A stretch of 64,000 nucleotides of DNA. It comes from Bacteroidaceae bacterium (lineage in GTDB: Bacteria; Bacteroidota; Bacteroidia; Bacteroidales; Bacteroidaceae). Shown here piece by piece: positions 3,476 to 45,861 of the stretch. The notes beneath the pieces were generated by a model. That model was not told where the DNA came from. It made no database searches and worked only from the letters and a program-made list of their open reading frames with translations. Every line of letters begins with the position of its first letter. The first letter of the stretch is position 1. The position numbers were made by a program, and so were the translations under genes. The stretch lies in the NCBI GenBank assembly GCA_017469925.1, contig JAFUFK010000006.1, forward strand, positions 1-64,000, in the 5' to 3' direction.

Positions 3476-5524
3476 ATGAAGAAGCTATTGTTCCTATTGT
3501 CGTTGCTGGTGGCGCAGACGGCGTTTGCGCAGTTCCACGAACCGGTGCAGTTCTCGGTCAAGCAGAACAAATTGTCGCCGACGGAAATCGAAGTCGTTTT
3601 TACGGGAAGTGTAGAGCCGGGTTGGCACGTCTATAGTACGGACATTGCCGACGGCGGACCTACGCGGGCCGAGTTGACGCTGGAGAAGAAGCAGGGCGTA
3701 AAGCCCAATGGACCGTTGCGCCCGACGGGCAAGGTGAAGCGCGAGATGGACGAGATGTTCGGAATGGAACTTTCGTTCATGGAGGGCACTGCCTCGTTTA
3801 GCCAGCGCTTTACCCTGACGGAACCCACCTATGAGGTTGCGGGCTACCTGACCTATGGCGCGTGCAACGACGAGAACTGCATGCCACCCACGAACGTTGA
3901 GTTCAGTTTTAGAGGTCAGGGACTTACCTCCAGCGGACCCTCCTCCAGCCCCTCCCTTGTAGGGAAGGGAGTAGATACTATTGCAACTCAAAAGGATAGT
4001 GTAACCACTCCCCTCCCTACAAGGGAGGGGTTGGAGGAGGGTCCGATGGGGGAGAGTCTGCTTTGGACGCCCGTCATCGACGAACTGAAGGCTTTCGGAC
4101 AGGGCGAGGCCACCAGCAGCAGTGATGCCGGTTGGCTGCGCATCTTCCTGCTGGGACTGTTGGGCGGACTGGCCGCCTTGCTGACGCCCTGCGTATGGCC
4201 CATTATCCCGATGACGGTCAGCTTCTTCCTGAAGCGGAATAAGGACGACCGTGCTGCGGGTATTCGCGAAGCCGTTACCTACGGCCTTTCCATCATCGTC
4301 ATCTATATGGCTCTGGGCCTGCTGGTAACCCTGTTGTTTGGGGCAAGTGCCCTGAATGCGCTGAGTACCAACGCCGTGTTCAATATCTTCTTCTTCCTCT
4401 TGCTGCTTCTGTTCGCAGCATCGTTCCTGGGCGGATTCGAAATCACGCTGCCCTCGAGTTGGAGCAATGCCGTCGATTCCAAGGCCACCCGGACCACTGG
4501 CCTGCTCAGCATCTTCCTGATGGCCTTCACGCTCGTCTTGGTCAGCTTCTCGTGTACGGGCCCCATTATCGGTTTCCTCTTGGTAGAGGTAGCCTCGACG
4601 GGCAACATCATCGGCCCGGCCATCGGCATGTTTGGCTTTGCATTGGCCTTGGCGCTGCCCTTCACCCTGTTTGCCCTCTTCCCCTCGTGGCTGAAGGCAG
4701 CCCCGAAGAGCGGCAACTGGATGAACTGCATCAAGGTCTGCCTTGGCTTCCTGGAACTGGCCTTCTCGCTGAAGTTCCTCTCCGTGGCCGACTTGGCCTA
4801 CGGTTGGCACCTGCTTGACCGGGAAACCTTCCTTTCGCTCTGGATTATCATCTTCGCCCTGCTGGGGGCCTACCTCATCGGGTGGCTCCGTTTCCCGCAC
4901 GACGAGGAGGAGTACGACGAAATGGGCGAGGTCGTCGTCCACCAGCGTACCAGCGTGACCCGCTTCTTCCTGGCCCTCATTTCCTTTGCCTTTGCCCTGT
5001 ATATGGTGCCTGGCCTCTGGGGTGCACCCTGCAAGACCGTCAGTGCCTTTGCACCCCCAATGAAGACTCAGGACTTCGTGCTCGGTCAGAAGGAAACACT
5101 CCACTTCGAGGACTATGAGGAGGGTATGGCCTACGCCCGGGCCAACCACAAACCGGCGTTCCTCGACTTTACGGGCTATGGTTGCGTCAACTGTCGGAAG
5201 ATGGAGGCGGCCGTATGGACTCACCCCGAGGTGCAGCAGGTGATGGACGACGACTTCGTGGTCATCTCCCTGTTCGTCGATGAGAAAACCCCGCTGGAGG
5301 AACCGATAATTGTCGATGAAATGGGCGAAAAACGCAAATTGCGCACCATCGGCGACAAGTGGAGTTACCTCCAGCGTTCGAAGTTTGGTGCCAATGCCCA
5401 GCCCTTCTACGTACTGGTCGATGGCGACGGCCACCCCTTAGCACCCTCGTACAGCTATAACGAAGACGTGCCTGCCTACCTGCAGTGGCTAAAGAATGGA
5501 CTTAAGAACTACCGAAAACAATAG
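3476..5524 (+). CDS. dsbD: Thiol:disulfide interchange protein DsbD
   Basis: Carries electrons from cytoplasmic thioredoxin across the inner membrane to periplasmic thiol proteins. The start MKKLLFLLSLLVAQTAFAQ gives a signal peptide. Domains in order: periplasmic N-terminal domain (about 20-150) with the redox pair in GACNDENCMPP; a linker carrying a palindromic insert; an eight-helix membrane domain (about 220-530) with the cysteine motifs LTPCVWPIIPM and SFSCTGPIIG; and a C-terminal thioredoxin domain with FTGYGCVNCRKME. All three cysteine pairs are present. The linker encoded by 3935-4044 is low-complexity Ser/Pro/Gly sequence from the inserted element and does not break the frame. The upstream start at 3446 (TTG) is rejected because it overlaps the promoter. 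Confidence 0.95.
   Translation: MKKLLFLLSLLVAQTAFAQFHEPVQFSVKQNKLSPTEIEVVFTGSVEPGWHVYSTDIADGGPTRAELTLEKKQGVKPNGPLRPTGKVKREMDEMFGMELSFMEGTASFSQRFTLTEPTYEVAGYLTYGACNDENCMPPTNVEFSFRGQGLTSSGPSSSPSLVGKGVDTIATQKDSVTTPLPTREGLEEGPMGESLLWTPVIDELKAFGQGEATSSSDAGWLRIFLLGLLGGLAALLTPCVWPIIPMTVSFFLKRNKDDRAAGIREAVTYGLSIIVIYMALGLLVTLLFGASALNALSTNAVFNIFFFLLLLLFAASFLGGFEITLPSSWSNAVDSKATRTTGLLSIFLMAFTLVLVSFSCTGPIIGFLLVEVASTGNIIGPAIGMFGFALALALPFTLFALFPSWLKAAPKSGNWMNCIKVCLGFLELAFSLKFLSVADLAYGWHLLDRETFLSLWIIIFALLGAYLIGWLRFPHDEEEYDEMGEVVVHQRTSVTRFFLALISFAFALYMVPGLWGAPCKTVSAFAPPMKTQDFVLGQKETLHFEDYEEGMAYARANHKPAFLDFTGYGCVNCRKMEAAVWTHPEVQQVMDDDFVVISLFVDEKTPLEEPIIVDEMGEKRKLRTIGDKWSYLQRSKFGANAQPFYVLVDGDGHPLAPSYSYNEDVPAYLQWLKNGLKNYRKQ
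3935..4044. repeat. 110-bp in-frame palindromic element inside dsbD
   Basis: A composite inverted repeat. The left end begins GGACCCTCCTCCAGCCCCTC and the right end is its near-perfect reverse complement. Each arm has its own small palindrome around CCCTCCCTTGTAGGGA or CCCTCCCTACAAGGGA. The middle contains AGATACT and TGTAACC, shared with the copy at 23214-23323. It reads through in frame as SSSPSLVGKG...VTTPLPTREGLEEG. Confidence 0.85.
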
Positions 5525-5671
5525 CAACCCAACGTCGATAGTGACAAACATAAGCCCTCTCCTAATGGAGTGAAGCGGTTACAATCTCAAATGAACTCTA
5601 AATAGTATTAAGATAAATTGTTGATAAAAAGGTTGAAAGAAATGATGAAATGAAGCATTATGGCATTCTAT
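5525..5671. other. Spacer with a degenerate half-copy of the palindromic element
   Basis: Bases 5552-5583, read on the reverse strand, give TGTAACCGCTTCACTCC... and match the half-element start TGTAACCGCTCCCCTCCC seen at 23279-23298. The match decays after about 20 bp. The spacer separates GC-rich dsbD from the AT-rich island. No clear promoter box is visible. Confidence 0.4.
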
Positions 5672-6289
5672 ATGAAAACTAACATTACGTTGTTCTTTTT
5701 GTTCTTTTGCATAAATTGTATTTATCCACAGAATTTGGATGTGAATGAGCAATGGGAGTCAATGACAGATTATAGGTTTAATAACTTTCCTTATGCATGT
5801 GTGTTAGATGGTATTTTTATAAAAAATGACATCGGTATTAATTTAAACGATGTAATGGACTCAGATACAACAGAATTCGCCATGAAATATCCTTTTTTAA
5901 TTAGAGGTATTGGTGAAAAGAATGATTCTCTCTGGGTTTTATCTAATCCGAACGAGATGGATGATGATGACTATATAGAGGTTAAAGGTATGATATGCGA
6001 GGATCTTGTAAATTTCATCTCAAAAAAAGGAAAGGTGGAATTGATTACACTTGATGAAGTCCGTAGGAGGAGGTATCCAGAAGTTGATACTCCATGCGTA
6101 TACATGATTAATAAGTTCTTTATTATGAAAAATCAGGATTTATATCGTCTGGATAAGGATTTTATCCATCACACCGAGAAAGTGAGGTCTGCCGATATAG
6201 ATGTACTCAAAGATTTCCCTCCTTTTACTATTATTCGAATATTCACAAGAACTTCTCATAATCAATTTTCCTCAAGAATAGGGTATTAG
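5672..6289 (+). CDS. Secreted protein of unknown function
   Basis: A 205-residue product with a signal peptide (MKTNITLFFLFFCINCIYPQ, likely cleaved after Ser/Tyr-Pro-Gln or made a lipoprotein at one of its Cys residues). The mature part is acidic and hydrophilic, with DSDTTEFAMKYPF, NPNEMDDDDYIEVKG and a basic EVRRRRYPEVD stretch. I do not recognise the family. An in-frame ATG at 5660 would add four residues; 5672 is preferred because it gives a normal signal peptide. The gene is strongly AT-rich compared with dsbD and the M16 gene. It is the first of three close same-strand genes (32-bp gap to the next), so it may belong to the same operon as the glycosyltransferase and LanC-like genes. Confidence 0.7.
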   Translation: MKTNITLFFLFFCINCIYPQNLDVNEQWESMTDYRFNNFPYACVLDGIFIKNDIGINLNDVMDSDTTEFAMKYPFLIRGIGEKNDSLWVLSNPNEMDDDDYIEVKGMICEDLVNFISKKGKVELITLDEVRRRRYPEVDTPCVYMINKFFIMKNQDLYRLDKDFIHHTEKVRSADIDVLKDFPPFTIIRIFTRTSHNQFSSRIGY

Positions 6290-6320
6290 GATTTGTCTAA
6301 CCCAATCATATGTTATAAGG

Positions 6321-7061
6321 ATGAAGGACGTTGCCTTTTTATTAGTTTCAAAATTTGACTCAATCATTCGTTTGGAGAATGCTTTGTTCGTATCAAAATA
6401 TTTAATTACAAACTTTCATGCAAAGGTGTATTTTTGGGAGATTTCGGAATATAATAATGGAATTTTTAAAAAGTTAATGCCAGTAGGAGTGAATTATTCT
6501 TTTGTAGAAGACAAAGACCCTATATTGCACAGGACATACTATATTAATAAAATGGTAGAATGTGTGCAGGAGAAATATATATCTATATGGGATGTAGATG
6601 TGGTTATTCCGACAGAACAAATTACAAAGGCTGTTTCATTCTTAGAGCAAGGATACGATTTTGTTTTGCCTTATGAATTTCATTTTTATGATACGACAGA
6701 GGAAATTAGAAAAATTTTTATGGAGGAGATGGATATGGAGATATTGAAGTTATATAAGAAGTTTATGATTGAATTGTATCGGCTCAGGCCTGTTGGTGGT
6801 GTATTCTTTGCTAATAGGAAGTCCTATATTGAGTGTGGTAAGGAAAATGAGAATTTTTATGGGTGGGGTGTTGAAGATGGAGAAAGATATCTTCGATGGC
6901 AATCAAAGAATAAAAAAATCGTGCATGTACAAGGCGACTTGTTTCATCTGACCCATCCACGTGGTATTAATAGTAAGATGCAATCACGGGATGAATCTAT
7001 TATTAAGCAAAGGATTTTTTTATCTTCATATAGAGGGGTGAGATGGAACATAAACTGCTGA
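6321..7061 (+). CDS. Galactosyltransferase-related glycosyltransferase
   Basis: A 246-residue protein resembling the GT2 / Glyco_transf_7C group. A metal-binding DxD is seen as SIWDVDVVIP (about residue 93), an acceptor-side motif as RPVGGVFFANRKSYIE, and the hallmark C-terminal motif as NFYGWGVEDGERYLR. The downstream FHLTHPRG could give the metal-binding His. It has no signal peptide or membrane helix, so it is cytoplasmic. It overlaps the LanC-like gene by 19 bp, implying coupled translation. GTs of this type sit beside LanC-like genes in some Bacteroidota peptide-modification loci; here the acceptor is unknown. AT-rich like its neighbours. Confidence 0.7.
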   Translation: MKDVAFLLVSKFDSIIRLENALFVSKYLITNFHAKVYFWEISEYNNGIFKKLMPVGVNYSFVEDKDPILHRTYYINKMVECVQEKYISIWDVDVVIPTEQITKAVSFLEQGYDFVLPYEFHFYDTTEEIRKIFMEEMDMEILKLYKKFMIELYRLRPVGGVFFANRKSYIECGKENENFYGWGVEDGERYLRWQSKNKKIVHVQGDLFHLTHPRGINSKMQSRDESIIKQRIFLSSYRGVRWNINC

Positions 7062-11081: not shown

Positions 11082-11189
11082 TGTTAACTTAACCTATGGC
11101 CTGAGGTTAACTTAACTTAGCCGCATAGGTTAACATAACCTCGGGCGATAGGTTAATATAACATCGGGGCGCAGGTTAACTTAACTTCC
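11082..11189. repeat. Array of 23-bp units with GTTAAC-type palindromes
   Basis: Units start at 11082, 11105, 11128, 11151 and 11174 (the last partial). Each begins (G/T)GTTAA, followed by CTTAAC, CATAAC or TATAAC, so a small palindrome GTTAAcTTAAC recurs every 23 bp; the remaining ~11 bp vary. The array lies exactly between two oppositely oriented terminators of convergent genes. Confidence 0.8.
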
Positions 11190-17204: not shown

Positions 17205-18938
17205 ATGAAAAAGAACATCACCATTAATTTGTTAGGCCGTCTCTACGCCATCGACGAGGACGCCTACGAACTGTTGAAACAATACACCGACTCGCTGCAC
17301 AGTTATTTCGGCCGCCGCGAGGGCGGGGAAGAGATAGCCGACGACATCGAGGCACGCATCGCCGAACTCTTCGAGGACCTGAAGGCCCAGGGCGTGCAGG
17401 CCATCACCATCGAGCACGTCCAGGACATCATCCACCGGGTGGGCCAGCCCGACGAGATAGAAAGCCCCCTCCTGGCCTCCCCCATAGAGGGAGAGGAAAC
17501 CCTAAGCACGGAGGAAAGCCCTTCCCCCTCCATGGGGGAAGCGGGGAAGGGGGTTAAGCGCCTCTATCGCAATATGTCCGACCGTAAGTTCATGGGCGTG
17601 CTCAGCGGTCTGGCTGCCTACTTCGGCGGCGATGTGCTGTGGTGGCGACTGGGCTTCGTGGCCCTGTTCTTCCTTTCTTCGCGCGTGTTGTGGTGGCCGT
17701 TTGGCTGGCAATATAGCTTGAGCATTTCGCTCTTGATTCTCTACATCGCCCTGGGCGTGCTGATGCCTGTGGCTGATACCCCCGAGGACCGACTGCGCAT
17801 GAAGGGCAAGGAAGTGAACCCGCAAAACCTGGCCGACGAGGTCAGTCAGCCGAAGCCCCAACTCAACGAGGGCGGTCACATGGGTTGCCTGGGCGGCTTT
17901 TTCTTCATCCTCGGCACGCTCGTGCGCTGGTTCGTCTATGGCATAGGCATCGCCTTGGCCTTCTCCCTGCTGGCAGGCATCGTGGGCCTGATAGCCTTAC
18001 TGACCATGCCGCACAGCCTGATTCATGAGAGCGACCCCGCCTTCTGGCAGTTCTTCGACGTCAATCAGGCGCATCTCATCACCGCAGCAGCACTCTCGCT
18101 CATCGTCCTGGCCATACCTACGTACTGCATCATCCACAGCCTCTTCTGCGAGATTAAACTCCTGCAGCCGATGGGCTTCCGTCAGCGCCTCATGTTCCTC
18201 ATTACATGGCTTATAGCCTTCATCGCTGCCGCCGTCGTATGCACGGGCTTGGTGGGCAAGGTGAAGGAGGCCGAGGAGAAGAGTTCCGAAATCCGCGATG
18301 AGCAGTACCGCAAGGAGAATACCCACGACGGCATCTTCTACCGGCCCGACGAGTGGGACTTCCTCTCGGAGCGCGGCTGGCGCGTGGTCAGGGCCGACCA
18401 TTGCAACGACCGCTACACCTCGCGCGGACAGTACTACACGGGTCACGACGCCCGTTACATCGACACCTACGACGCGCGCCACCGCCAACTCTTCACCATC
18501 GAACGCACCGACTCGCTGCAGCCCGGCAACTACCAACTTTCGGCCTGCGTGCGTGCCGACGGACAAGGGGCATGCGTCTATGCCTTCGTCGACGGATATG
18601 ACCAGGGACCTTGGTTGAAGGAAATCCCTGCCAACGGCAACACGGGCGGCGACATGTGGCTCGAGGCAAAGAAGTGGCTGTCGGACCAGGCAAAGGAGCA
18701 CGGCGACACCATCAACAACATGGAACTCTACAACCGCATGTGGAACATCGCCCACGCCAACAACGAACAGGGCTTTGGCTGGAACCGCATTACGCTGCCC
18801 GTCATCGTCGTCAAGCAGCCCTCCGTCCTGCACTACGGCGTCTCCACTGTCCCGTCTCTCACGGGTCAGTCCTTCCTCGGCCACTGGTTCTCCGCCTGCG
18901 ACTTCGAGTTGAAGCGGATGGACGATAAAAAGAAATGA
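17205..18938 (+). CDS. Large PspC-domain membrane protein
   Basis: A 577-residue protein. N-terminal cytoplasmic helical region (1-90) with MKKNITINLLGRLYAIDEDAY, found in Bacteroidota PspC fusions; then a linker made by an in-frame palindromic element (17463-17555); a PspC domain (about 120-190: RLYRNMSDRKFMGVLSGLAAYFGGD); further membrane helices (about 225-350); and a soluble C-terminal part (about 370-577) with no motif I recognise. It follows a PadR regulator by 6 bp. A role in envelope-stress control is likely from domain and context; the mechanism is unknown. Confidence 0.85.
   Translation: MKKNITINLLGRLYAIDEDAYELLKQYTDSLHSYFGRREGGEEIADDIEARIAELFEDLKAQGVQAITIEHVQDIIHRVGQPDEIESPLLASPIEGEETLSTEESPSPSMGEAGKGVKRLYRNMSDRKFMGVLSGLAAYFGGDVLWWRLGFVALFFLSSRVLWWPFGWQYSLSISLLILYIALGVLMPVADTPEDRLRMKGKEVNPQNLADEVSQPKPQLNEGGHMGCLGGFFFILGTLVRWFVYGIGIALAFSLLAGIVGLIALLTMPHSLIHESDPAFWQFFDVNQAHLITAAALSLIVLAIPTYCIIHSLFCEIKLLQPMGFRQRLMFLITWLIAFIAAAVVCTGLVGKVKEAEEKSSEIRDEQYRKENTHDGIFYRPDEWDFLSERGWRVVRADHCNDRYTSRGQYYTGHDARYIDTYDARHRQLFTIERTDSLQPGNYQLSACVRADGQGACVYAFVDGYDQGPWLKEIPANGNTGGDMWLEAKKWLSDQAKEHGDTINNMELYNRMWNIAHANNEQGFGWNRITLPVIVVKQPSVLHYGVSTVPSLTGQSFLGHWFSACDFELKRMDDKKK
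17463..17555. repeat. 93-bp in-frame palindromic element inside the PspC gene
   Basis: Outer arms begin AGCCCCCTCC and end GGAAGGGGGTT. Inner small palindromes are centred on CCTCCCCCATAGAGGGAG and CCCCCTCCATGGGGGAAG. It translates without stops as SPLLASPIEGEE...SPSPSMGEAGKG, linking the N-terminal helical region to the PspC domain. Confidence 0.8.
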
Positions 18939-22553: not shown

Positions 22554-23150
22554 ATGAATTGCAACGAATTTAGGAATCGGGTGGCCGACCTCTTCGATAG
22601 GGAGGCAGGCCCACAGATGCGGACCGAGTGCGAGCGGCACATGGCCGAGTGCCCGTCGTGCCGTGCCTATTACGACGGCCTCAGGTCGGTAGATAAACTC
22701 CTGCGTCCCCAGCATTCGCCTGTTGAGGTGCCTCGCAGGGAGGTTCGCCTCGTGCGTCGGTGGATGCGCATTGCTGCCATGTTTGTCAGCATCGCCCTCC
22801 TCGGTGGAGTGGCATGGGCGGTCGTAGGTTACCGCTTGAAATCGTCTCAAACACAGACTCCCCAATCCGCACAAGTAACCACTCCCCTCCCTCTCAGTGA
22901 GGGGCAGGGGGGAGGGTCTTCCATCCAGTTCGACAACGTCCGCCTCGATAGTCTGCTCTCCGTCGTGGCAGGGCACTATGGCAAGGCCGTCCAGTTCCGC
23001 GACGACGAGGCGCGCGAGATGCGACTCATCATGACGTGGAACCCTGCCGACTCGCTGGCGGACTTCGTCAGTCGCCTGAACCGATTCGAGGGACTGACGC
23101 TGACCCTGCGAGAAGATACGCTGGTTGTGGAAGCACTCACCTATGAATAA
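22554..23150 (+). CDS. Anti-sigma factor: zinc-finger, membrane anchor and periplasmic STN-like domain
   Basis: A 198-residue protein. The cytoplasmic ZAS-type anti-sigma domain has the His-Cys-Cys motif in CERHMAECPSCRAYYD, with an upstream Cys in MNCNEFRNRV. One membrane helix (MRIAAMFVSIALLGGVAWAVVGY) is followed by a linker carrying a palindromic half-element (22875-22920) and a C-terminal domain SIQFDNVRLDSLLSVVAGHY... like the DUF4974/STN domain at the end of FecR proteins. The matching domain in the downstream receptor suggests signal transfer across the periplasm. Translationally close to both neighbours. Confidence 0.82.
   Translation: MNCNEFRNRVADLFDREAGPQMRTECERHMAECPSCRAYYDGLRSVDKLLRPQHSPVEVPRREVRLVRRWMRIAAMFVSIALLGGVAWAVVGYRLKSSQTQTPQSAQVTTPLPLSEGQGGGSSIQFDNVRLDSLLSVVAGHYGKAVQFRDDEAREMRLIMTWNPADSLADFVSRLNRFEGLTLTLREDTLVVEALTYE
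22875..22920. repeat. Single-arm palindromic element inside the anti-sigma gene
   Basis: GTAACCACTCCCCTCCCT followed by CTCAGTGAGGGGCAGGGG and a GGGTCTT end. It equals the right half of the 110-bp copies in dsbD and the receptor gene. It reads in frame as VTTPLPLSEGQGGG, extending the linker after the membrane helix. Confidence 0.8.
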
Positions 23151-23159: not shown

Positions 23160-26100
23160 ATGAAACGAATCCTATACCTTATTATATTATATATAGTGGG
23201 AGTGACAAACACTAGACCCACCCCCTGCCCCTCCCTTGTAGGGAGGGGGGGAGATACTCCTGCTAATGAGGGCCTTAATGTAACCGCTCCCCTCCCTATA
23301 AGGGAGGGGCAGGGGGTGGGTCTTCTGGAGGGGGGGTCTGGGTCCTTAATTTCAGCCCTGCAAGCGATAGCCCGCGAACATCCCGAATACACCATCGACA
23401 TCCTGACTGACAGCCTCACGAACTTGCAGACCGCCGTGCTACCCAAGGGAAAATCCGTGCCCGACGACGTGCGACGACTCTGCAAGGGACTGCCCGTAAG
23501 AGTGAGCATCGACGGACAGCACATCACCGTACAGGCAAAGGGGAAGAAGCGTTTCGAGGTCGTGACCCTCGGGGGATATGTGGAGGACTGCTTCCTGAAG
23601 ATGCCCCTGCCCGAGGCCCATGTGTCCATTCTTTCAGCGGACAGCACGGTAGTTGTGGACTCGACTTCGATGGTACGTTTCTATGGTCGCAACATGCGTC
23701 TCGTGAGCGCGCACTATGCCGCCGAGGTCAGTGGTCGGGTGCGAGAGTATCTCGTCCGTGCCCAACTGGACGGCTACGAAGACCAGTGGCAGCGCGTCGC
23801 TGTCAACGGCACGCAGCAGGAGGTGGAGGTGCCGACGCTACGGATGCGCAAGATGCAGGGAGCGACGATGAAGGAGGTGGTGGTGACGGCCACGAAGGTG
23901 AAGTTCTTCTGGCGCGGTGACACGCTCATCTACGATGCCACGGCCTTCCAGATGCCGCAGGGTTCCATGCTGGGCGACCTCATCCGCCAAATGCCCGGCG
24001 TGACGCTGAACGACCAGGGCGAGATATTCGTCAATGGCCGTAAGGTGGACGAACTCCTGCTGGGTTCTCACACGTTCTTCGGCGGCAACAAGCGCGTGCT
24101 AATGGAGAACCTGCCGTACTACACCGTGAAGACGCTGAAGGTGTATGAGAAACAGACCGACAAGAACGAGGCCCTGGGTTACGATGTGGAGCCGAAGAAG
24201 TATGTGATGGACGTGAACCTGAAGGACGAATATAGCCGGGGCTACATCGCCAACGTGGAGGCGGCGGGCGGAACGGACAAGCGTTACCTGGGCCGTGGCT
24301 TCCTACTGGGCTTTACCGACCGGGTGCGCACAACCTTGCTGGGCAACATCAACAACGTGAACGAATCGCGACACATCGGACAGCAGGACCATTGGCGACC
24401 AGCCTCCATGCCGCGTTCCGAACTGACTACGCGCAGCGTGGCGGGCGAGGTGGCCTACTACGCCAAGGAGGACAAGGTAAAAGAGATTTTCCGTGCCGAG
24501 TTCACCTCCACGAGCGACGAGCAGACCATGCGCCAGCGTCGGGAGCAGTATCTTGACGGCCTGACGCCGACGTCGCAGACCGAAACCTTCAACCGTCGGG
24601 GCAACAATCGCCTGAACCTGCACAACGACTTCACGCTGAAGAAACCGTGGACATACATCACCGCCGACTTCCGCTACGCCCATCGCGACGGCTCCATGCG
24701 CTCGGCCTTCGAGGAGTGGGCCGACTCGCTCACCATCCTGCAGCGCACCGTCGGCATGAACGAAGGAACAACATGGGGCCTCACCGCCGACGCGCAGGGC
24801 ACCGTCAAGTTCCGCCGTCCCAAGCAGCACATTTCCTATTACGCTGTGGTGAGCCACGATGACGACAAGAAGGAGGAGGCGACGCGCTTCGAGACAAGTT
24901 CCATGTTGACCCTCCGACATAATGCGAACGATGTCCGCAAGCGCACGACGGGGAGCGCGGCGTGGCTCTCCTATCACAAAGAACTGGCTCACGACCTGAC
25001 ACTGTCGGTAGGCGACAATGCAAACGTCACAGTGACAGACAACCACGACTGGCTCTATCATCCCGACACACTTCTGTTGCCCTCGCAATTGGATGTCCTC
25101 ACGGCCATCACCGACCCGTCGAACTCCTACGACCTCCATCGTCGCCGCTGGGAGCACAAGCCTGGCGTGAGTCTGTCCAAGCACGGCACCTACATGCACC
25201 CCCAAATCCACATGACCATCGGCTATCAGCGGTGGAGCATCGGCATGGGCGTGCCCGTCGTCCATGAACGGCTCAGTTATCAGCGTGGCGTGATTGACAC
25301 CATCGCCCGACAGACGACCGTTGTTCTGGACCCCAGCGCCTCATTCCGCCACGTATGGAAGGACGGCAAGCGCGACATCAACCTCCACGCCAGTTACAAG
25401 AACGCCCCTGCCGAACTGCTCGACCGCATCGACTGGCGCGACGACAGCCATCCGCTCATCGTCAAACTGGGAAACAGCCACCTGAAGGGCGCGGCAATGA
25501 CATCGCTCAGTGCCAGTTACTACGACCATACGGCACCGCGCCAAGGCATGTACTACCTGGATGCCAAGTTCGACTACCTCCATCGCGCCGTCTCGCAGTC
25601 GGTCACCTACAACCCCACGACCGGTGTCTATACCTACAAGCCCATGAACATCAGTGGCACCTACACAGCCAAAGCCAACTTCAGCACCGACCGCAGTATC
25701 GGCCAGAAGCGCTACTGGACGTGGCACGTCAATGCCGGTGCCGACTGGAACCACGCGAAGGACCACGCCATGATAGTGGGCGAGACCACCAGCCACGTAA
25801 ACACCGTCAACACCCTCTTCCTGAAAACCGCCGCCCACATCCAGTACGACCACAAGGGCCTGAACCTCCGTGCTCTGGGCGAGATACGCTGGCGACACTC
25901 CGAGGGACAGATGCGCGACTTCGCCGTCCTCAACGCCTATGAATACGAGTACGGTCTGACCGCCCGCTACACCACGCCCGAACTCGGCAAGAAGGTCGGC
26001 GCCCTGACCCTCGCGGCTGATGGCATGATGTACAGTCGCCGCGGCTATGGCAGTCGCCTGCTCAACACCGACGACTTCGTCCTCAACGCCTCCGTCAGCC

Positions 26101-26285
26101 AGCCCCTGCTCCGGGGCAAACTCATCCTGCGCCTCGAAGCCTTCGACCTCCTCGGTCAACTCTCCTGTACGCAGTACGAGGTCAACGCCCTGGGACGCAC
26201 AGAGACGTGGTACCGCTCCCTGCCTCGCTACCTTATGTTCCACGTCGTCTATCATTGGAATCGCAACCCCAAGCGCGACCGATAA
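23160..26285 (+). CDS. TonB-receptor-like outer-membrane protein with STN domain (module 1)
   Basis: A 1041-residue protein. A hydrophobic N-terminal signal (MKRILYLIILYIVGV) is followed at once by a stretch encoded by a 110-bp palindromic element, then an STN-like domain (about 60-125: LISALQAIAREHPEYTIDIL...VRVSIDGQHITVQ), a carboxypeptidase-like regulatory domain (about 135-225), a plug-like domain (about 235-340: MKEVVVTATKVKFFWRGDTLIYDATAF, PGVTLNDQGEIFVNGRKVDEL) and a large barrel ending LPRYLMFHVVYHWNRNPKRDR. No SusD partner follows. It follows its anti-sigma gene by 9 bp and is about the same size and layout as module 2's receptor. Confidence 0.8.
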   Translation: MKRILYLIILYIVGVTNTRPTPCPSLVGRGGDTPANEGLNVTAPLPIREGQGVGLLEGGSGSLISALQAIAREHPEYTIDILTDSLTNLQTAVLPKGKSVPDDVRRLCKGLPVRVSIDGQHITVQAKGKKRFEVVTLGGYVEDCFLKMPLPEAHVSILSADSTVVVDSTSMVRFYGRNMRLVSAHYAAEVSGRVREYLVRAQLDGYEDQWQRVAVNGTQQEVEVPTLRMRKMQGATMKEVVVTATKVKFFWRGDTLIYDATAFQMPQGSMLGDLIRQMPGVTLNDQGEIFVNGRKVDELLLGSHTFFGGNKRVLMENLPYYTVKTLKVYEKQTDKNEALGYDVEPKKYVMDVNLKDEYSRGYIANVEAAGGTDKRYLGRGFLLGFTDRVRTTLLGNINNVNESRHIGQQDHWRPASMPRSELTTRSVAGEVAYYAKEDKVKEIFRAEFTSTSDEQTMRQRREQYLDGLTPTSQTETFNRRGNNRLNLHNDFTLKKPWTYITADFRYAHRDGSMRSAFEEWADSLTILQRTVGMNEGTTWGLTADAQGTVKFRRPKQHISYYAVVSHDDDKKEEATRFETSSMLTLRHNANDVRKRTTGSAAWLSYHKELAHDLTLSVGDNANVTVTDNHDWLYHPDTLLLPSQLDVLTAITDPSNSYDLHRRRWEHKPGVSLSKHGTYMHPQIHMTIGYQRWSIGMGVPVVHERLSYQRGVIDTIARQTTVVLDPSASFRHVWKDGKRDINLHASYKNAPAELLDRIDWRDDSHPLIVKLGNSHLKGAAMTSLSASYYDHTAPRQGMYYLDAKFDYLHRAVSQSVTYNPTTGVYTYKPMNISGTYTAKANFSTDRSIGQKRYWTWHVNAGADWNHAKDHAMIVGETTSHVNTVNTLFLKTAAHIQYDHKGLNLRALGEIRWRHSEGQMRDFAVLNAYEYEYGLTARYTTPELGKKVGALTLAADGMMYSRRGYGSRLLNTDDFVLNASVSQPLLRGKLILRLEAFDLLGQLSCTQYEVNALGRTETWYRSLPRYLMFHVVYHWNRNPKRDR
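23214..23323. repeat. 110-bp in-frame palindromic element after the receptor signal peptide
   Basis: Left arm AGACCCACCCCCTGCCCCTC; right arm its reverse complement ending GGGGGTGGGTCT. Small inner palindromes are CCCTCCCTTGTAGGGAGGG and CCCTCCCTATAAGGGAGGG. The centre keeps AGATACT and TGTAACC. Same length as the dsbD copy and read in the same frame (PSLVGRGGDT...VTAPLPIREGQGVG). Confidence 0.85.
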
Positions 26286-34778: not shown

Positions 34779-34808
34779 AGCTGCAACTTCATCAGTTGCG
34801 GCTTTTTT
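34779..34808 (+). terminator. Terminator of rpsO
   Basis: GCTGCAACT pairs with AGTTGCGGC (loop TCATC), then six T; it ends 20 bp before the next start codon. Confidence 0.85.
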
Positions 34809-34828
34809 CATTATTAAAAGAAAAAGAT

Positions 34829-37342
34829 ATGAGTTATAAGAAACTTCTCCCCGACGTGCTGATGGTGGCCCTTTTTGCCGTCATCAGTTTGGCTTATTTC
34901 TGGAACCCCATCATGGACGGGCTGGTGCTGACGGGCACCGACCACGACGCAGCCGTGGGGTCGAACGTGGAATTGAACGAGTATCGCCGGGCACACGACG
35001 GCGAGCGCACCCGCTGGACGAACTCCCTGTTCTCGGGTATGCCCACCTACCAGATGTCGCCCTCGTACGACAGCACCGACACGCTATCGACCATCGAGCG
35101 AGTCTATCAACTGGGTTTGCCCACGGTGGCCGGCTACGTGTTCATGATGCTGCTGGGCTTCTACATCCTGCTGCGCGCCTTCGACTTCCGTCAGTGGATG
35201 GCCGCTCTGGGTGCCATCCTGTGGGCGTTCTCCAGTTACTACTTCATCATCATTGCCGCCGGCCACATCTGGAAACTGCTGACGCTCTGCTTCATCCCGC
35301 CCACCATAGCGGGCCTTGTGCTCTGCTATCGGGGCAAATACCTCTGGGGCATACTGGTGACAGGCATATTTACCGCCCTGCAGGTCTTCTCGAACCACAT
35401 CCAGATGTCGTACTACTTCCTCTCGGTCATGTTGCTGATGGCGGTGGCCTATCTCCTCAAGCTTCGCTTTCCTGAGTGGCTAAAGGGTTCCCTAGCCGCC
35501 CTGGTGGGTGGATTGCTGGGACTGAGCATCAACGTCTCGAACCTCTATCACACCTACGAATACAGCAAGGAGACCATGCGCGGCAAGAGCGAACTGACGC
35601 AGAAGACGAAGGACGCCGCCGACCAGACTGACAGCGGACTCGAACGCTCGTACATTACAGCCTGGAGTTATGGCATCGGCGAGACGTGGACCCTGCTTGT
35701 GCCCAATACGAAGGGCGGTGCCTCGGTGCCCTTGAGCCAGAGCAAGACAGCCATGGAGAAGGCCAAGAACGACTACCGCCCGCTCTACCAGCAAATGGGC
35801 CAGTACTGGGGCGAGCAGCCCGGGACGAGCGGCCCCGTCTATGTGGGTGCCTTTGTCTTGTTCCTCTTTGTCCTGGGCCTCTTTATCGTAAAGGGCCCGA
35901 TGAAGTGGGCGCTGCTGGTGGCTACCATCCTCAGCATCCTGCTCTCGTGGGGCAAGAACTTCATGCCCCTGACCGACTTCTTCCTCGACTATGTGCCCAT
36001 GTACGACAAGTTCCGTACCGTGGCCTCTATACTCGTCATTGCGGAGTTCACCATTCCCCTCTTGGCCATGATGGCGCTGAAGGAAGTGGTAAATCTCTCC
36101 CAGCCTCCCCTTAAAGGGGAGGAGAACGCCCTCCCTTTAAGGGAGGGGTGGGGTAGGTCTTCATTGTGGGCCTTGGCCCTTACCGCAGGCGTGTGCTTCC
36201 TCTTCTGGCTGATGCCCGACGTGTTCTTCGGCAACTACATCTCGGAGAGCGAGCGACAGGCCATTCAGGGCCTCTCGGAGTATGGTTGGCCTGTGGGCGA
36301 CGTGATGCAGAACCTCTCGGATATGCGCCGTGCCGTCTTCACGGCCGATGCCATGCGCTCCTGCATCATCATCCTGATAGGCTTCGGCATACTGATGCTC
36401 TACCGCTATCGCAAACTGAAGGAAGTGCCCATGGTGGCCTGTCTGGCATTGCTTTGCCTTGTGGATATGTGGGGCGTGAACAAGCGCTACCTGAACGACG
36501 ACATGTTCGTGCGCCCGCGCACCACGGAGCAGGCCTTCCCGCTGACCGACGTCGATGCCGAGATACTGCAAGACTCGGACCAGTACTATCGCGTACTGAA
36601 CCTTGCAGTCAGCACCTTCAACGACAATACGACATCGTATTATCACAAGAGCATTGGCGGTTACCACGCAGCCAAACTGCGCCGTTACCAGGAACTCATC
36701 GAGGCCCACATCCAGCATGAGATTCCGCAGGCCTGGCAGTCGGCCACGAACATCGCGGAGGTGCCGGGCGACAGCCTCTTCCCCGTGCTGAACATGCTGA
36801 ACATGCAGCACATGATATTGCCCTTGAAGGACGGCGGGCGCGTGCAGGTGGAGAATCCTCATGCCAACGGCAATGCCTGGTTCGTCCGCGAGGTGCGCTA
36901 TGTCGATGATGCCGATGCCGAACTGGCAGGACTGAAGCAACTCGACACGAAGCACGTGGCCGTGGCCGACAAGCGGTTCGCTGAGGTTTTGGGCAAAGCC
37001 CAGAACGACTCTACAGCCAAGGCTGTCCTTACCTCTTACGAGGCTAACGAACTGCAGTACGACGTGGAGAGTCAGGACGGCGGCGTGCTGGTGTTCAGCG
37101 AGATATACTACCCTGGTTGGACGTGCATTGTCGATGGTCAGCCCGTGGAGATTGGGCGTGTCAACTATGTCCTGCGTGCCATTCGCATCGATGGTGGTAA
37201 GCACAGGGTCGTGCTCACCTTCAAGCCTCGCTCGGAACGCATCACCGAGACCATCGCCTATTCCGCCCTCGCCCTGCTGGCCCTCCTGTTGGTTGGTCTG
37301 CTTGTGCGCCCGCTCGTCCGCGGCAGTGTTAAAAAGGTTTAA
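34829..37342 (+). CDS. YfhO-family polytopic membrane protein
   Basis: An 837-residue membrane protein of the YfhO family (GT-C-like fold; relatives glycosylate lipid-linked or teichoic polymers). About a dozen membrane helices occupy residues 1-510, with an early acidic motif after helix 1 (NPIMDGLVLTGTDHDAAVG). A soluble domain (about 540-790) follows with FSEIYYPGWTCIVDGQPVEIGRVNYVLRAIRI, a YfhO hallmark, and a last helix before the C-terminus. Bases 36096-36162 encode a palindromic insert (SQPPLKGEENALPLREGWGRSS) in a loop between helices. The start at 34829 (MSYKKLLPDVL) is preferred to 34796, which would overlap the rpsO terminator. Confidence 0.85.
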   Translation: MSYKKLLPDVLMVALFAVISLAYFWNPIMDGLVLTGTDHDAAVGSNVELNEYRRAHDGERTRWTNSLFSGMPTYQMSPSYDSTDTLSTIERVYQLGLPTVAGYVFMMLLGFYILLRAFDFRQWMAALGAILWAFSSYYFIIIAAGHIWKLLTLCFIPPTIAGLVLCYRGKYLWGILVTGIFTALQVFSNHIQMSYYFLSVMLLMAVAYLLKLRFPEWLKGSLAALVGGLLGLSINVSNLYHTYEYSKETMRGKSELTQKTKDAADQTDSGLERSYITAWSYGIGETWTLLVPNTKGGASVPLSQSKTAMEKAKNDYRPLYQQMGQYWGEQPGTSGPVYVGAFVLFLFVLGLFIVKGPMKWALLVATILSILLSWGKNFMPLTDFFLDYVPMYDKFRTVASILVIAEFTIPLLAMMALKEVVNLSQPPLKGEENALPLREGWGRSSLWALALTAGVCFLFWLMPDVFFGNYISESERQAIQGLSEYGWPVGDVMQNLSDMRRAVFTADAMRSCIIILIGFGILMLYRYRKLKEVPMVACLALLCLVDMWGVNKRYLNDDMFVRPRTTEQAFPLTDVDAEILQDSDQYYRVLNLAVSTFNDNTTSYYHKSIGGYHAAKLRRYQELIEAHIQHEIPQAWQSATNIAEVPGDSLFPVLNMLNMQHMILPLKDGGRVQVENPHANGNAWFVREVRYVDDADAELAGLKQLDTKHVAVADKRFAEVLGKAQNDSTAKAVLTSYEANELQYDVESQDGGVLVFSEIYYPGWTCIVDGQPVEIGRVNYVLRAIRIDGGKHRVVLTFKPRSERITETIAYSALALLALLLVGLLVRPLVRGSVKKV
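36096..36162. repeat. In-frame palindromic element inside the YfhO-like gene
   Basis: Two inverted arms: CTCTCCCAGCCTCCCCTTAA and the right arm CCCTCCCTTTAAGGGAGGGG followed by TGGGGTAGGTCTT. Inner palindromes centre on CCCCTTAAAGGGG and CCCTTTAAGGG. Read without stops as QPPLKGEENALPLREGWGRS. Confidence 0.8.
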
Positions 37343-42301: not shown

Positions 42302-42314
42302 GGTATCAAGGTGT

Positions 42315-43229
42315 TTAAGGTTTAAGCTTCTTATACAGGAATCGCGCGACCTTGCCCAAGGGCGTGTAGCGGATGCCCCAGTCGCGTATGGCCCGGGCGA
42401 ACTGGGCCTCCACGTCGGGGTCCTTCTCGGGCCGCTCCACACGGCTTAGGGGCAGGGGCGCCTGTCGGGGCTCGCGGTCGAACTCGTACCACTGCAACAG
42501 CCGCCACGAGCGGAAGTGCGTCCCGCTCGACAGCCCGATGTTGCGGACCATCGTCTGCCCGGGCGTCAGGCAAAGCCCGTGGGCGCGGTAGATGGCCACC
42601 TCCCAGCAGATGTCCCAGGGAATAGGCCGTCGGTCGAGACTTCCGAGGCAGGGGAATACGCCACCATACTGAAGGGCGTCCTGGTCGTCCGGGGTCAGCC
42701 CCTCGAGCGCCTCCTCGCGGGTCGTGTAGTGCCGGAAGTGTCCCTGCCACCGGTCGCGCCACGTGCCCCATCCCCACCCGCTCATGTGGGGGGTGAAGTA
42801 GAAGGGACGGTCCGCGAGCGCCAGGTTGGTGAAGCCGGCGACATGCATGACGCGCGGCACGTCCTGGTAGAGTTCGAAGGCCTGGTTCATATAGTCGAGG
42901 TAATGGGGCGAGGTGACGATGTCGTCCTCCAGCACGATGATGCGGTCGTGCTCCCGGAGCACCTCGGCGATGCCCTCGGTGATGTTCCGCTCGAGGTAGA
43001 AGTTCTCGGGCCGTTCGACCAGGGTAAGGGCGGCGAACGCCTTGGCGAACTCCCTCACCGTCCTCCTGACCTCGTGCACGAGGTCCCACGACTGCGGGTC
43101 GCGCCCCCCGTCACTGAAGACGAAGACCTCCGTCTCGCGGGCCTGCGTATTACGGGCCAGCGCCTCGAGCGTGCGGCGGGTGTTGTCCGCGCGGTTATAG
43201 ACGAAGAGGGCTACGGGTGCATGTTTCAT
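42315..43229 (-). CDS. Glycosyltransferase with nucleotide-diphospho-sugar transferase fold
   Basis: A 304-residue GT-A protein. N-terminal MKHAPVALFVYNRADNTRRTLEALARN and FVFSDGGRD bind the nucleotide sugar. The metal motif is IIVLEDDIVTSPHYLDYMNQA. The acceptor region includes FTPHMSGWGWGTWRDRW and GLSSGTHF. This subfamily occurs in Bacteroidota surface-glycan loci. Start at 43229 is the first after the non-coding array. It lies 13 bp upstream of the Dcu gene on the same strand, though functional linkage is doubtful. Confidence 0.85.
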   Translation of the reverse strand: MKHAPVALFVYNRADNTRRTLEALARNTQARETEVFVFSDGGRDPQSWDLVHEVRRTVREFAKAFAALTLVERPENFYLERNITEGIAEVLREHDRIIVLEDDIVTSPHYLDYMNQAFELYQDVPRVMHVAGFTNLALADRPFYFTPHMSGWGWGTWRDRWQGHFRHYTTREEALEGLTPDDQDALQYGGVFPCLGSLDRRPIPWDICWEVAIYRAHGLCLTPGQTMVRNIGLSSGTHFRSWRLLQWYEFDREPRQAPLPLSRVERPEKDPDVEAQFARAIRDWGIRYTPLGKVARFLYKKLKP

Positions 43230-43325
43230 GTTGCAAATATAGGTAAAAAATGGGTAACCCCCGTAAGTTTTTCCGGTTTTTTGCCGTCGCAGGCCCAAAA
43301 GCGTCGGGTCGCTGCCTCCGCAGCG

Positions 43326-43589
43326 CTTAGGTGTCGAGGTCCGGTCTCTTGGGTGTCGAGGCCCGGTCTCTTAGGTGATTTGCCTCGGTCGCCTAATAGT
43401 TTGTGATGAAAGACGCGCATCTTACGGCCGAAAGACGCGCATCTTGCAGCCGAAAGACGCGCATCTTACACGTGAAAGACGCGCGTCTTTCACGTCAGTC
43501 TATTAGGCGTTTGGCCTCGGACACTTAGGAGACGGGGCCCAAACGCTTAGGAGACGGGCCTTGAACACTTAGGAGACGGGGGCCGAACG
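43326..43589. repeat. Twelve-unit, 22-bp-periodic array in three sequence blocks
   Basis: A strict 22-bp register runs for 264 bp. Block 1 (from 43326, 43348 and 43370) has CTTAGGTG-type units with GTCGAGG and CGGTCT. Block 2 has GAAAGACGCGCATCTT units from 43408, 43430, 43452 and 43474, offset 16 bp; its last unit forms a perfect 26-bp palindrome (43470-43495). Block 3 returns to the original phase with (A/C)TTAGG units at 43502, 43524, 43546 and 43568, each with GAGACGGG in the last three. 43392 to 43502 is exactly five periods. It lies between the divergent starts of two polysaccharide genes. Confidence 0.85.
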
Positions 43590-43611
43590 CCCACGGCCGA
43601 AGTTACTCACT

Positions 43612-43664
43612 CTCGGAAAACTGCCAATAAATTTGCGTTTTCGCTCGCTTAACCGTAACTTTGC
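43612..43664 (+). promoter_or_regulatory. Promoter of acyltransferase 1, copy 2 of the promoter-bearing repeat
   Basis: CTCGGAAAA (43612-43620), TTG (43633-43635), 20-bp spacer with TTCGCTCG, TAACTTTGC (43656-43664); 7 bp before the start codon. Closely matches the rpsO promoter. Confidence 0.75.
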
Positions 43665-43671
43665 ACTCATT

Positions 43672-44772
43672 ATGACCAGTGCGAGACCACGAAACCACGC
43701 CTTCGACCTCCTGTGCGGACTCTGTATAGTGCGCATGGTCATGCTGCATGTCGTCGGCATGTGCCACCTGAGGGGCGAACTGTGGTTCCAGAAGCTGATG
43801 GCGTGGACCTTCTTTTTCCTCTGCTTCTTTTTCTTCAAGGCCGGGTACTTCAACAGGACGGTGGGGGGCTCCACGCGCGCTTTCGTCTGGGACAAGGCCC
43901 GCCGGCTGCTCCTGCCCTACGTATGCTGGGGGCTGATAGGCAATCTGGTCTATTTCGGCTTCCTCTACGGGTGGCCGCGGCTCTTCGCCTCGACGCTGCG
44001 CCAGGTGCGCTGGAGCCATCTGTGGGAGGCCAGCCAGTTCTACGGCAATCCGCCCGTGTGGTTCCTCTTCTCCTTCTTCATGATGTACGTCATCGTCCAC
44101 CTGTGGCGGCGCTGGACCTCAGGACCCTCTCCCCAGCCCTCCCCCGTAATGGGGAGGGAGCCATCTGGCACGCCACCTCCCCCATTATGGGGCGAGGTCG
44201 GGAAGGGGGCCTGCTCTTTTCTCTGGCTCCTACTGCCCGCCCTCAGTTACTGGCTATGGACGCGGGGCAACCCCCTGTGGATGAGCCTCGGCAACGTGCC
44301 GATGGGCGTCTTCTGCTTCGAGCTCGGTCACTGGTGGCACGAGGCGGAGCGGCGCCTGCCCCGCGGATGGTTCGTCGCCCTCTCGGTGGCGTTGGTCGTT
44401 CTGTTCCTTTACGGCAACCACCATTGGCACGGCGAGTGCGACATGGCCCTTAACAAGTGGGTGCAACGGCCCTGGGGCTCGGTCCTGAACACCACGTGCG
44501 CCGTCTGCGGCCTGTCGGGCCTCCTGCTCTCCCTGCCCCTGAGGCGCGTGCCCTGGCTCGGCTTTGTCGGGGAGCACTCGATGGTATTCTTCGTCATGCA
44601 CTACCCGCTCATCTTCCTCTATCGCATGGGACTGCAGGTGGCCCACGTCAGCGTGTGCGGCCAGTGGGCCCACGGCGTCGGGATGCTCGTGCTTATCTTC
44701 CTGGTGTGCGGTCTCTTGGTGCCCCGCATCGAAAAAGTGCCGTGGTTGAGCGGAAGATTCCCGAAAAAGTAG
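43672..44772 (+). CDS. Acyltransferase-3-type membrane protein, paralogue 1
   Basis: A 366-residue polytopic protein of the acyltransferase-3/OafA-like group, which O-acetylates surface sugars. It begins RPRNHAFDLLCGLCIVRMVMLHVVGMCH, with the membrane-embedded His in the usual first-helix position. Further features: FFFFKAGYFNR, WDKARRLLLPYVCWG, WFLFSFFMMY and a C-terminal GEHSMVFFVMHYPLIF. A loop after helix 5-6 is built by a palindromic element (44121-44212). It has a close paralogue directly downstream. Start at 43672 is 7 bp after the -7 box, so the transcript is nearly leaderless. Confidence 0.85.
   Translation: MTSARPRNHAFDLLCGLCIVRMVMLHVVGMCHLRGELWFQKLMAWTFFFLCFFFFKAGYFNRTVGGSTRAFVWDKARRLLLPYVCWGLIGNLVYFGFLYGWPRLFASTLRQVRWSHLWEASQFYGNPPVWFLFSFFMMYVIVHLWRRWTSGPSPQPSPVMGREPSGTPPPPLWGEVGKGACSFLWLLLPALSYWLWTRGNPLWMSLGNVPMGVFCFELGHWWHEAERRLPRGWFVALSVALVVLFLYGNHHWHGECDMALNKWVQRPWGSVLNTTCAVCGLSGLLLSLPLRRVPWLGFVGEHSMVFFVMHYPLIFLYRMGLQVAHVSVCGQWAHGVGMLVLIFLVCGLLVPRIEKVPWLSGRFPKK
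44121..44212. repeat. 92-bp in-frame palindromic element inside acyltransferase 1
   Basis: Left arm AGGACCCTCTCCCCAGCCCT, inner palindrome CCTCCCCCGTAATGGGGAGG; right arm with CCTCCCCCATTATGGGG and end GGAAGGGGGCCT. Read as GPSPQPSPVMGREPSG...PLWGEVGKG. Occupies the same loop as the shorter copy in acyltransferase 2. Confidence 0.82.
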
Positions 44773-44781
44773 TACCTTTGC
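44773..44781 (+). promoter_or_regulatory. -7 box directly before acyltransferase 2
   Basis: TACCTTTGC ends 3 bp before the ATG at 44785, so a transcript from here would start at or inside the codon (leaderless) or the gene is read from upstream. Confidence 0.5.
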
Positions 44782-44784
44782 ACC

Positions 44785-45861
44785 ATGAAACCACGTAACC
44801 ACGCCTTCGACCTGCTCTGTGGCATCTGTATCATCCGCATGGTGAGCCTGCACGTAATGGCCATGTGCGGCCATGCCGACGACCCGTGGTGGCGCGAGGT
44901 CATGCAGTGGACCTACTATTTCATGTCGTTCTTCTTCTTCAAGGCGGGCTACTTCAACAAGAGCGTCCTGGGCCCCAGTCGCCAGTATTGTCTCGACAAG
45001 ACCAAGCGGCTGCTCGTGCCTTACCTGACGACGGGACTCATCGGCGGGGCTATCTACTTCTCGTTCCTCCCGTTCCTTATCGACCGCTTCCATAAGCCCA
45101 TCGAGCCCCTCGAGTGGTCGCACATCTGGCAGAGCGGCGCTTTCTATGGCAACAACCCTACGTGGTTCCTTATCAGCTTCTACACGGCCTACATTGCCAT
45201 CCACTTCCTGGAGAAGGCAAGGCACAAGTATCTCTCCTCCCCCATTATGGGGGGAGGCCGGGTAGGGGGTCTGCTCTACTTCCTGTTTCCCGCGATTGGC
45301 TACTGGCTCTTTACGCTGAAGAACCCCCTGTGGCTGGGGCTCAGCAACGTCTTCATGGGCATCTTCTTCTTCGAACTCGGGCGCGTCTGGAGCCGACTGC
45401 TCGGGCGCTGGAGCCGAGAGACAGGGGCCTGGGTGTCGTTCCTACTGATTGTTGCCTTCGTCATCAGCAATGCCGTGTTCCACGACTGTTCCTACACGAT
45501 GTCGAACAACAAGTTCTCGGGCGACCCCTTCATTACGACCCTCAACATCACCGCCATTTTGTGCGGCCTGTCGGGCCTGCTCATCTCGCTCGACGTGCCT
45601 CGTGTGCCCTGGATAAACTTCATCGGACAGCACTCGATGGTCTTCTTCGTCAGCCACTATCCGATGTTGTACTACTATAAGTTCATGCACTTGTGCTTCG
45701 GCCGGAGCATATTCGGCCGGTACGACGAGGTACTGGTCCTCCTGCCCATCATCTTTGGCCTCTGTGCCTGGCTCGTACCCTACATCGAGCGCGTGCCCTG
45801 GCTGAGCGGTAGGTGGCCGAAGGAAGTTCAAAGTTCGAAGAAAGTTCAAAGTTCAAAGTGA
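44785..45861 (+). CDS. Acyltransferase-3-type membrane protein, paralogue 2
   Basis: A 358-residue protein clearly paralogous to the one upstream: KPRNHAFDLLCGICIIRMVSLHVMAMCG, FFFFKAGYFNKS, WFLISFYTAYIAIHFLEKA, LWLGLSNVFMGIFFFELGRVW and GQHSMVFFVSHYPMLYYYK. Probably acylates a different position or sugar of the same surface glycan. The palindromic element here is a single arm (45232-45272). The C-terminus KEVQSSKKVQSSK is encoded by an AAAGTTC-type tandem repeat that runs into the start of the LicD gene. Confidence 0.85.
   Translation: MKPRNHAFDLLCGICIIRMVSLHVMAMCGHADDPWWREVMQWTYYFMSFFFFKAGYFNKSVLGPSRQYCLDKTKRLLVPYLTTGLIGGAIYFSFLPFLIDRFHKPIEPLEWSHIWQSGAFYGNNPTWFLISFYTAYIAIHFLEKARHKYLSSPIMGGGRVGGLLYFLFPAIGYWLFTLKNPLWLGLSNVFMGIFFFELGRVWSRLLGRWSRETGAWVSFLLIVAFVISNAVFHDCSYTMSNNKFSGDPFITTLNITAILCGLSGLLISLDVPRVPWINFIGQHSMVFFVSHYPMLYYYKFMHLCFGRSIFGRYDEVLVLLPIIFGLCAWLVPYIERVPWLSGRWPKEVQSSKKVQSSK
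45232..45272. repeat. Single-arm in-frame palindromic element inside acyltransferase 2
   Basis: CTCTCCTCCCCCATTATGGG, then GGGAGGCCGGGTAGGGGGTCT. Reads SSPIMGGGRVGGLL in the loop homologous to the 92-bp copy in paralogue 1. Confidence 0.8.
45826..45857. repeat. AAAGTTC tandem low-complexity repeat
   Basis: GTTCAAAGTTCGAAGAAAGT followed by two more GTTCAAA copies. Encodes the last residues of acyltransferase 2. A related GTTCAAG-type tract lies between ugd and the UpxY gene (52495-52520). Confidence 0.6.

Follow-up and report, generated by a model that had tools for sequence, protein, structure and literature searches.

The window analysed here is the whole 64,000-nucleotide stretch (contig JAFUFK010000006.1 of assembly GCA_017469925.1, positions 1 to 64,000) of a Bacteroidaceae genome. 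The sequence-only reading had described in it seven copies of one palindromic element, at 3935, 17463, 22875, 23214, 36096, 44121 and 45232, each lying in frame in a coding sequence. We followed these up with a covariance model of the repeat arm (R1), applied at E≤0.1 for the genome count and at E≤1 for calls of absence in the window, and with comparisons to relatives. The copies point to a dispersed family of hairpin-forming repeats, with arms of about 44 nt as their basic unit. The features of the window are as follows.

3935–3978, + strand: left arm of an inverted pair in a DsbD-like gene (3446–5524, +; Pfam DsbD_N, DsbD_TM), in frame, read GPSSSPSLVGKGVDT; R1 57.3 bits
4001–4044, − strand: right arm of the DsbD pair, read VTTPLPTREGLEEGP; R1 60.9 bits; 22-nt spacer at 3979–4000
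17463–17553, unstranded: second-class palindromes in a PspC gene (17205–18938, +), read SPLLASPIEGEETLSTEESPSPSMGEAGKG; from direct sequence
22875–22918, − strand: single right-type arm in a zf-HC2 anti-sigma-like gene (22554–23150, +; Pfam zf-HC2), in frame, read VTTPLPLSEGQGGGS; R1 55.7 bits
23214–23257, + strand: left arm close to the N-terminus of a large outer-membrane-type gene (23160–26285, +; Pfam OMP_b-brl_3 match below its cut-off), read RPTPCPSLVGRGGDT; R1 64.1 bits
23280–23323, − strand: right arm of the pair in the outer-membrane-type gene, read TAPLPIREGQGVGL; R1 63.8 bits; 22-nt spacer
36096–36162, unstranded: two-palindrome composite in a YfhO-like gene (34796–37342, +; Pfam YfhO), in frame, read SQPPLKGEENALPLREGWGRSS
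44122–44213, unstranded: second-class pair in an acyltransferase gene (43633–44772, +; Pfam Acyl_transf_3); left palindrome weak with R1 (26.7 bits, E 0.028)
45232–45272, unstranded: second-class palindrome in the tandem paralogous acyltransferase gene (44785–45861, +; Pfam Acyl_transf_3); from direct sequence

The C-rich arms, the palindromic core and the AGACCC/GGGTCT ends that had been described were all confirmed. The claim of one single element held for the copies at 3935, 22875 and 23214, which together with the arms at 4001 and 23280 scored 55.7–64.1 bits, and weakly for 44122 and for 36119–36162 (23.2 bits, E 0.11, core at 36130). The copies at 17463 and 45232 gave no R1 match at E≤1, and both belong to a second, related palindrome class with a CATTATG-type centre. 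Because the hosts of the 44121 and 45232 copies are tandem paralogues whose right-hand palindromes (the right one of the 44122–44213 pair and that at 45236) are 82% alike including the flank, these two copies are not independent. The DsbD pair forms a 58-nt inverted repeat with 86% complementarity. Both 110-nt elements that were folded as RNA gave long hairpins of about −90 kcal/mol (−89.1 kcal/mol for 3935–4044 and −92.6 kcal/mol for 23214–23323).

A genome-wide repeat family in and around genes

The profile search revealed a dispersed family larger than the copies of the window. In the 2.87-Mb genome of the window (G000; other G and L numbers denote other genomes and loci), the core pattern gave 57 strand hits and its reversed control none, and R1 matched 81 arms at E≤0.1 among the 150 of 1085 candidates that were scored. 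According to the consensus read from an alignment of 38 arms, each arm begins with AGACCCnCCCCCnRC, continues with a 19–21-nt palindrome, CCCTCCCTnnnAGGGAGGG, and closes with the inner end GAGTRRnTAC. Grouping the arms found in the stretches around the hits gave 53 elements: 15 consist of one arm and the other 38 are +/− pairs. Most arms thus form inward-facing inverted pairs. The pairing script accepted only the order + then −, and a check of G000 by eye found no other arrangement of arms within 250 nt. The pairs measure 91–181 nt, apart from one of 337 nt.

By our own assignment, 27 of the 53 elements lie in frame within genes, 15 lie across a gene start and 11 lie elsewhere or in no settled class, the four of no settled class being L015 3348, two elements of L031 and L034 151. 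Since the interior class was defined by an open frame, the openness of these hosts is not a test. Judged from such open frames, the arms would be translated, and the frames together with conserved domains suggest that the host proteins function. The interior hosts include QueA, RadA, MnmG, MnmA, a PcnB-type polymerase, CbiE/T, CbiG-H, a protein of the dihydrolipoamide dehydrogenase type, GH92, an M16 peptidase and MATE, MFS and MMPL proteins, while the host at L015 had no Pfam match. The proposed restriction to membrane or secreted hosts therefore fails genome-wide. The same is true of the claim that every copy is read in one frame: a script placed 44 palindromes in interior host open reading frames (ORFs), 24 in f0 (PLPxREG), 12 in f1 (PSLxGRG), seven in f2, of which at least two are chance or mis-centred, and one even-centred. 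With the palindromes spread over three frames, the one-frame reading was rejected. At gene starts, 13 palindromes divided into five f0, six f1, one f2 and one even-centred. Separately, an Obg GTPase gene of another genome (L040:3975–4162, G246) carries several tandem in-frame arms, with FLSSQGGAGGGS repeated, a local expansion.

The gene-start pairs have a distinct layout. In all 15, a long ORF lying upstream has its stop at the left arm, at most 2 nt from the arm edge in ten and 27–44 nt inside the arm in five. The start codon lies inside the spacer, and the right arm is in frame with the gene, often directly ahead of the signal-peptide core, as in MNKIARVTAPLPHREGLGVSLLLALVLFVAC. The position of the stop codons at these left arms, and hairpins of some −90 kcal/mol over 110 nt, would suit arms that are regulatory RNA hairpins (terminators or mRNA-stability elements) under selection, with the coding copies as by-products. 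Against this, roughly half of the copies are within coding sequence, and close relatives differ in whether they have the element; we regard this explanation as unlikely.

Orthologues of the host genes argue for insertion. At 17 interior sites, relatives were empty at eight, had a variable segment of similar length at eight and had a single arm at one. The eight sites with empty orthologues are therefore in-frame insertions. The 17 sites comprise 12 that could be aligned out of 17 tried in a second comparison and five from a first one (QueA, RadA, MnmG). For the second comparison 18 interior fragments were prepared and 13 used in the query, two overlapping ones counting as one; the tally is without L003, which was searched and had no orthologue, and without w22875, L011a, L018 and L036. 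The main QueA site was empty in eight of nine relatives; in the ninth, G313, the right-hand site is occupied by a different kind of arm-like segment, RLSPPRGEMERG. Among 14 relatives compared at the main RadA site, G312 has the element, G301 has a different hairpin class and 12 have short or variable loops; at the MnmG site G312 again has the element and 13 of 14 lack it, among them G302 with a long dissimilar loop. Empty orthologues were also found for MnmA (G301 and G302), for CbiE and CbiG-H (G303 and G302), for the MFS protein (G302) and for PcnB, where G302 is empty and G301 has a degenerate arm-like segment. At the CbiT site, a single right-type arm of G303 (L098) takes the place of the pair in G000, and all three arms have an unusual outer part in common. 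Of 15 genes searched for insertions at their starts, 11 were compared, and absence of the element from relatives was shown at nine. At the starts of L028 and L035, G301 has an element of another class and G312 none. The RNase H gene (L013) is ambiguous, with a 1-nt junction in G301 and a longer leader in G302 and G303. The presence of the element thus differs between close relatives.

These comparisons bear on whether the segments might be ancestral conserved linkers and not insertions, the outcome that had been named as refuting the original proposal. The eight sites with variable loops of similar length, and the RadA and MnmG arms common to G000 and G312, would fit such linkers. The empty orthologues already refute them at the other eight sites, and one and the same DNA unit turns up in proteins that are unrelated, which makes this explanation very improbable. 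In-frame insertion, as first proposed, was thus borne out at eight of the 17 aligned sites; it was not for the window copies in DsbD (3935) and YfhO (36096), whose relatives have linkers of similar length without arms.

Paired arms and the DNA between them

The arms of a pair resemble each other more than arms at large. Across 37 of the 38 G000 pairs, within-pair likeness was 0.527 against 0.443 after shuffling within this one genome, a value reached in none of 10,000 shuffles (L020 2629–2965, which the script had paired at 248 nt, was excluded). The excess was present both in the 21 pairs with gaps of at least 40 nt (reached in 4 of 5,000 shuffles) and in the 16 with gaps of at most 36 nt (2 of 5,000). 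Moreover, paired arms can differ jointly between species. In CTP synthase both arms read ACCCACCCCC with the loop TGTGA at L207 and ACCCTCCCCC with TATAA at L164; in RadA both arms contain TTGTA in G000 and G312 and CCCCGAGGGG in G301.

The orientation of neighbouring arms was counted in a scan of named genomes, for which 80 of 116 stretches were listed (L145–L224; some loci stem from the same species and are not all independent). After removal of partial and odd matches, which left 205 of 215, neighbours less than 200 nt apart were +/− in 78 of 83 cases, and those at 200–400 nt in one of ten. Some of these pairs bracket native coding DNA. In CTP synthase (L207, L164) 138 nt of coding sequence separate the arms, and the stretch of L207 aligns with a CTP synthase of known structure (PDB chain), closely in its second half. 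Glutamate synthase (L198, GltB) has two brackets of 81 and 186 nt, and the enclosed sequence aligns with the solved enzyme (PDB chain). The enclosed sequence of QueA is likewise native by comparison with relatives, on which this case rests because no QueA PDB chain aligned over the bracketed stretch. Each spacer of G000 occurs just once in its genome.

We therefore consider it probable that the repeats form a dispersed family of non-autonomous hairpins, working like REPINs (doublets of repetitive extragenic palindromic [REP] sequences) and like Rickettsia palindromic elements, whose paired arms are homogenised by template switching. Mobilised in trans, new copies would land widely and disruptive ones would be purged, so that the survivors would stand in frame in tolerant loops, just behind a stop codon, or between start codon and gene body. 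Some short-spacer pairs may act as a single insertion. Two facing arms would template each other in replication by template switching between inverted repeats, as suggested by the likeness and the joint change of paired arms. The arms of a pair would hence tend to stay alike and to change jointly, even across native coding DNA. In yeast, template switching makes the arms of inverted repeats alike (PMC8604942; this and the other papers cited are described from their available passages).

Several observations weigh against this picture. The DsbD, YfhO, MATE L009, Lpd L020, M16 L034, PreA-like L011, N-terminal RadA and middle QueA sites are the ones where relatives have variable segments of similar length. 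Spacers are native in QueA and CTP synthase but extra, being absent from relatives, in MnmA and CbiE, so that a single way of forming pairs may not account for all of them; the simple statement that all spacers are native was rejected on the same grounds. Template switching from a single arm alone leaves the near-absence of outward-facing pairs unexplained. The arms of several pairs are discordant (L009 2985, L018, L033, L034 2956, L035), and at L209 the left arm is of another class and the arms have no paired likeness. Genome-wide homogenisation could add to the joint change of arms, since the other element of L207 has the same loop class. Finally, the link to a candidate transposase, described below, is ambiguous, as a long gene of that type also occurs in 60 of 264 arm-negative genomes.

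A more specific mechanism, which we hold to be doubtful, is that an arm builds its own pair: replication, priming at the near-palindromic inner end (GTAAC/GTTAC), would make an inverted copy of it a little distance away in the gene, bracketing native coding DNA, and the two arms would then keep correcting each other. If true, a self-pairing arm would let the family spread locally and evolve in concert, and would need no dedicated transposase.

An ordinary miniature inverted-repeat transposable element (MITE), mobilised by a DDE transposase and ending in inverted repeats of 44 nt, would account for the AGACCC...GGGTCT termini and for the pair lengths of 91–181 nt in G000 (the 337-nt pair aside). 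At MnmA, the only site examined base by base, the comparison of G000 with G301 showed no evident target-site duplication. Single arms are frequent, at 15 of the 53 elements, and the spacers are mostly dissimilar and unique. In addition, no autonomous copy was seen in the loci read, in which no systematic search was made. We judge such an element quite improbable. As the sole model, a MITE that always moves as a pair was rejected, given native sequence within some pairs and spacers unique in the genome.

Distribution and a candidate enzyme

Within the family, 37 of 301 genomes have the outer motif of the arm, and these span 8 of 30 genera. Across the phylum the motif was present in 5 of 296 genomes, G000 included. 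Outside the family, L262, L264 and L265 have a longer inner segment and L263 has the outer motif alone. Nearly all listed loci of the named-genome scan (78 of 80) come from Prevotella or from Prevotellaceae, Bacteroidaceae or Bacteroidales metagenome-assembled genomes (MAGs), many of them from ruminants. Single intergenic arms matching all specified bases of the scanned pattern were also seen at L193:6984–7027 and L197:107–150, in MAGs labelled Planctomycetota and Phycisphaerales, which could be misbinned. Eight units read in a genome of another Bacteroidota family (G533; L267–L273), seven near-identical and one variant, share the outer motif, but their inner segment is different and longer.

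Two long genes resembling REP-associated tyrosine transposases (RAYTs) are present in G000. By hand count from the listings, uncorrected for kinship, a long RAYT-like gene occurs in 22 of 37 arm-positive and 60 of 264 arm-negative genomes, and PF01797 in 21 of 37 and 79 of 264, respectively, a positive but loose association. A RAYT-like gene (L001:817–1860, −; HUH motif PDHIH) has its own in-frame palindromic segment with 37-nt arms of 76% complementarity, which matches a report of tnpA-REP genes that themselves contain REP insertions, in a subclass that is abundant in both Cyanobacteria and Bacteroidetes (PMC6006769). These genes raise the possibility of a true REPIN or bacterial interspersed mosaic element (BIME) family, which a RAYT (HUH tyrosine transposase) from the Bacteroidota group would mobilise in trans, with pairs always transposed as a unit and the spacers diverging later. 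Short-spacer pairs with similar spacers that recur in relatives, such as GSDYSQ...STPLPHREG (by eye), and the REP insertions in the subclass's own gene speak for it as well. On the other hand, a long RAYT-like gene was not detected in 15 of the 37 genomes with arms, the spacers of G000 are unique in its genome, and transposition as a unit cannot explain how native sequence of CTP synthase, GltB or QueA came to stand inside a pair. A RAYT beside the element was sought and not found: R1 had no match at E≤1 in 14 sources covering 13 Y1/RAYT genes, a weak test in which only four genes (G000, G190, G289, G165), among them one of the two of G000, came from arm-positive genomes. This explanation overlaps with homogenisation of a trans-mobilised family and is a tangible possibility, albeit the less favoured of the two.

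Two further repeats were noticed in the window. A 22-nt repeat array (TTAGG..., GAAAGACGCGCATCTT...) with an internal 56-nt inverted repeat lies at 43327–43590, upstream of the acyltransferase genes, and at 11083–11187 a GTTAACTTAACCT-type sequence occurs four times, spaced 23 nt.

Significance and relation to known repeats

Core enzymes (CTP synthase, RadA, tRNA-modifying enzymes) of a common gut and rumen lineage took up segments of about 14–44 residues from a repeat family. The empty, single-arm and paired states found among relatives make insertion, pairing and arm-to-arm correction traceable site by site. Annotators of Prevotella proteins should bear in mind that segments of the PLPxREGxGVG type can be repeat DNA and not domains.

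Searches of the open-licence literature, some of them directed at REPINs and template switching, yielded no description of this family or of its in-frame copies in Prevotella, and to that extent the earlier statement that no Bacteroidota counterpart is described stood. It has to be narrowed, since intragenic REPs are reported in several species and CGTC repeats in Bacteroidetes (PMC3733652), besides the insertions inside tnpA-REP genes. As in the GTAG- and CGTC-tagged REPs of PMC3733652, intragenic copies occur in several species and dimers are common. Unlike the GTAG REPs, the arms have no fixed 5′ GTAG and begin with AGACCC, GTAG being confined to the 3′ end, where 22 of 74 arms have it within their final 10 nt; unlike the CGTC REPs, the arm consensus, which was examined in place of single arms, is without CGTC. 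With MITEs the family has terminal inverted repeats in common. The homogenisation described in yeast likewise makes inverted-repeat arms alike, also in coding DNA, but concerns inverted repeats in general in the available passages of PMC8604942 and not a dispersed family.

REPINs, as described in PMC3116915, are also multi-copy, hairpin-forming inverted doublets of short palindromic repeats with a spacer less conserved than the ends. They differ in sequence and are extragenic and near their own RAYT, whereas 27 of the 53 elements here are inside genes, no cognate RAYT was identified and the pairs can span up to 186 nt, which for some of them is native coding DNA. The parallel with Rickettsia palindromic elements drawn by the sequence-only reading stands in that palindromic repeats are dispersed in frame over many unrelated, presumably functional genes (elements described via PMC3733652) and that eight of 17 sites are empty in orthologues; the single frame and the mainly membrane hosts that went with it fall away. 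The Rickettsia elements come from another phylum and are likened to ours by description and not by sequence, and the passages of PMC3733652 describe neither paired arms around native sequence nor paired change. The likeness to REPINs and to Rickettsia palindromic elements thus concerns the way of working, and the family is placed beside them by analogy and not as a member of either.

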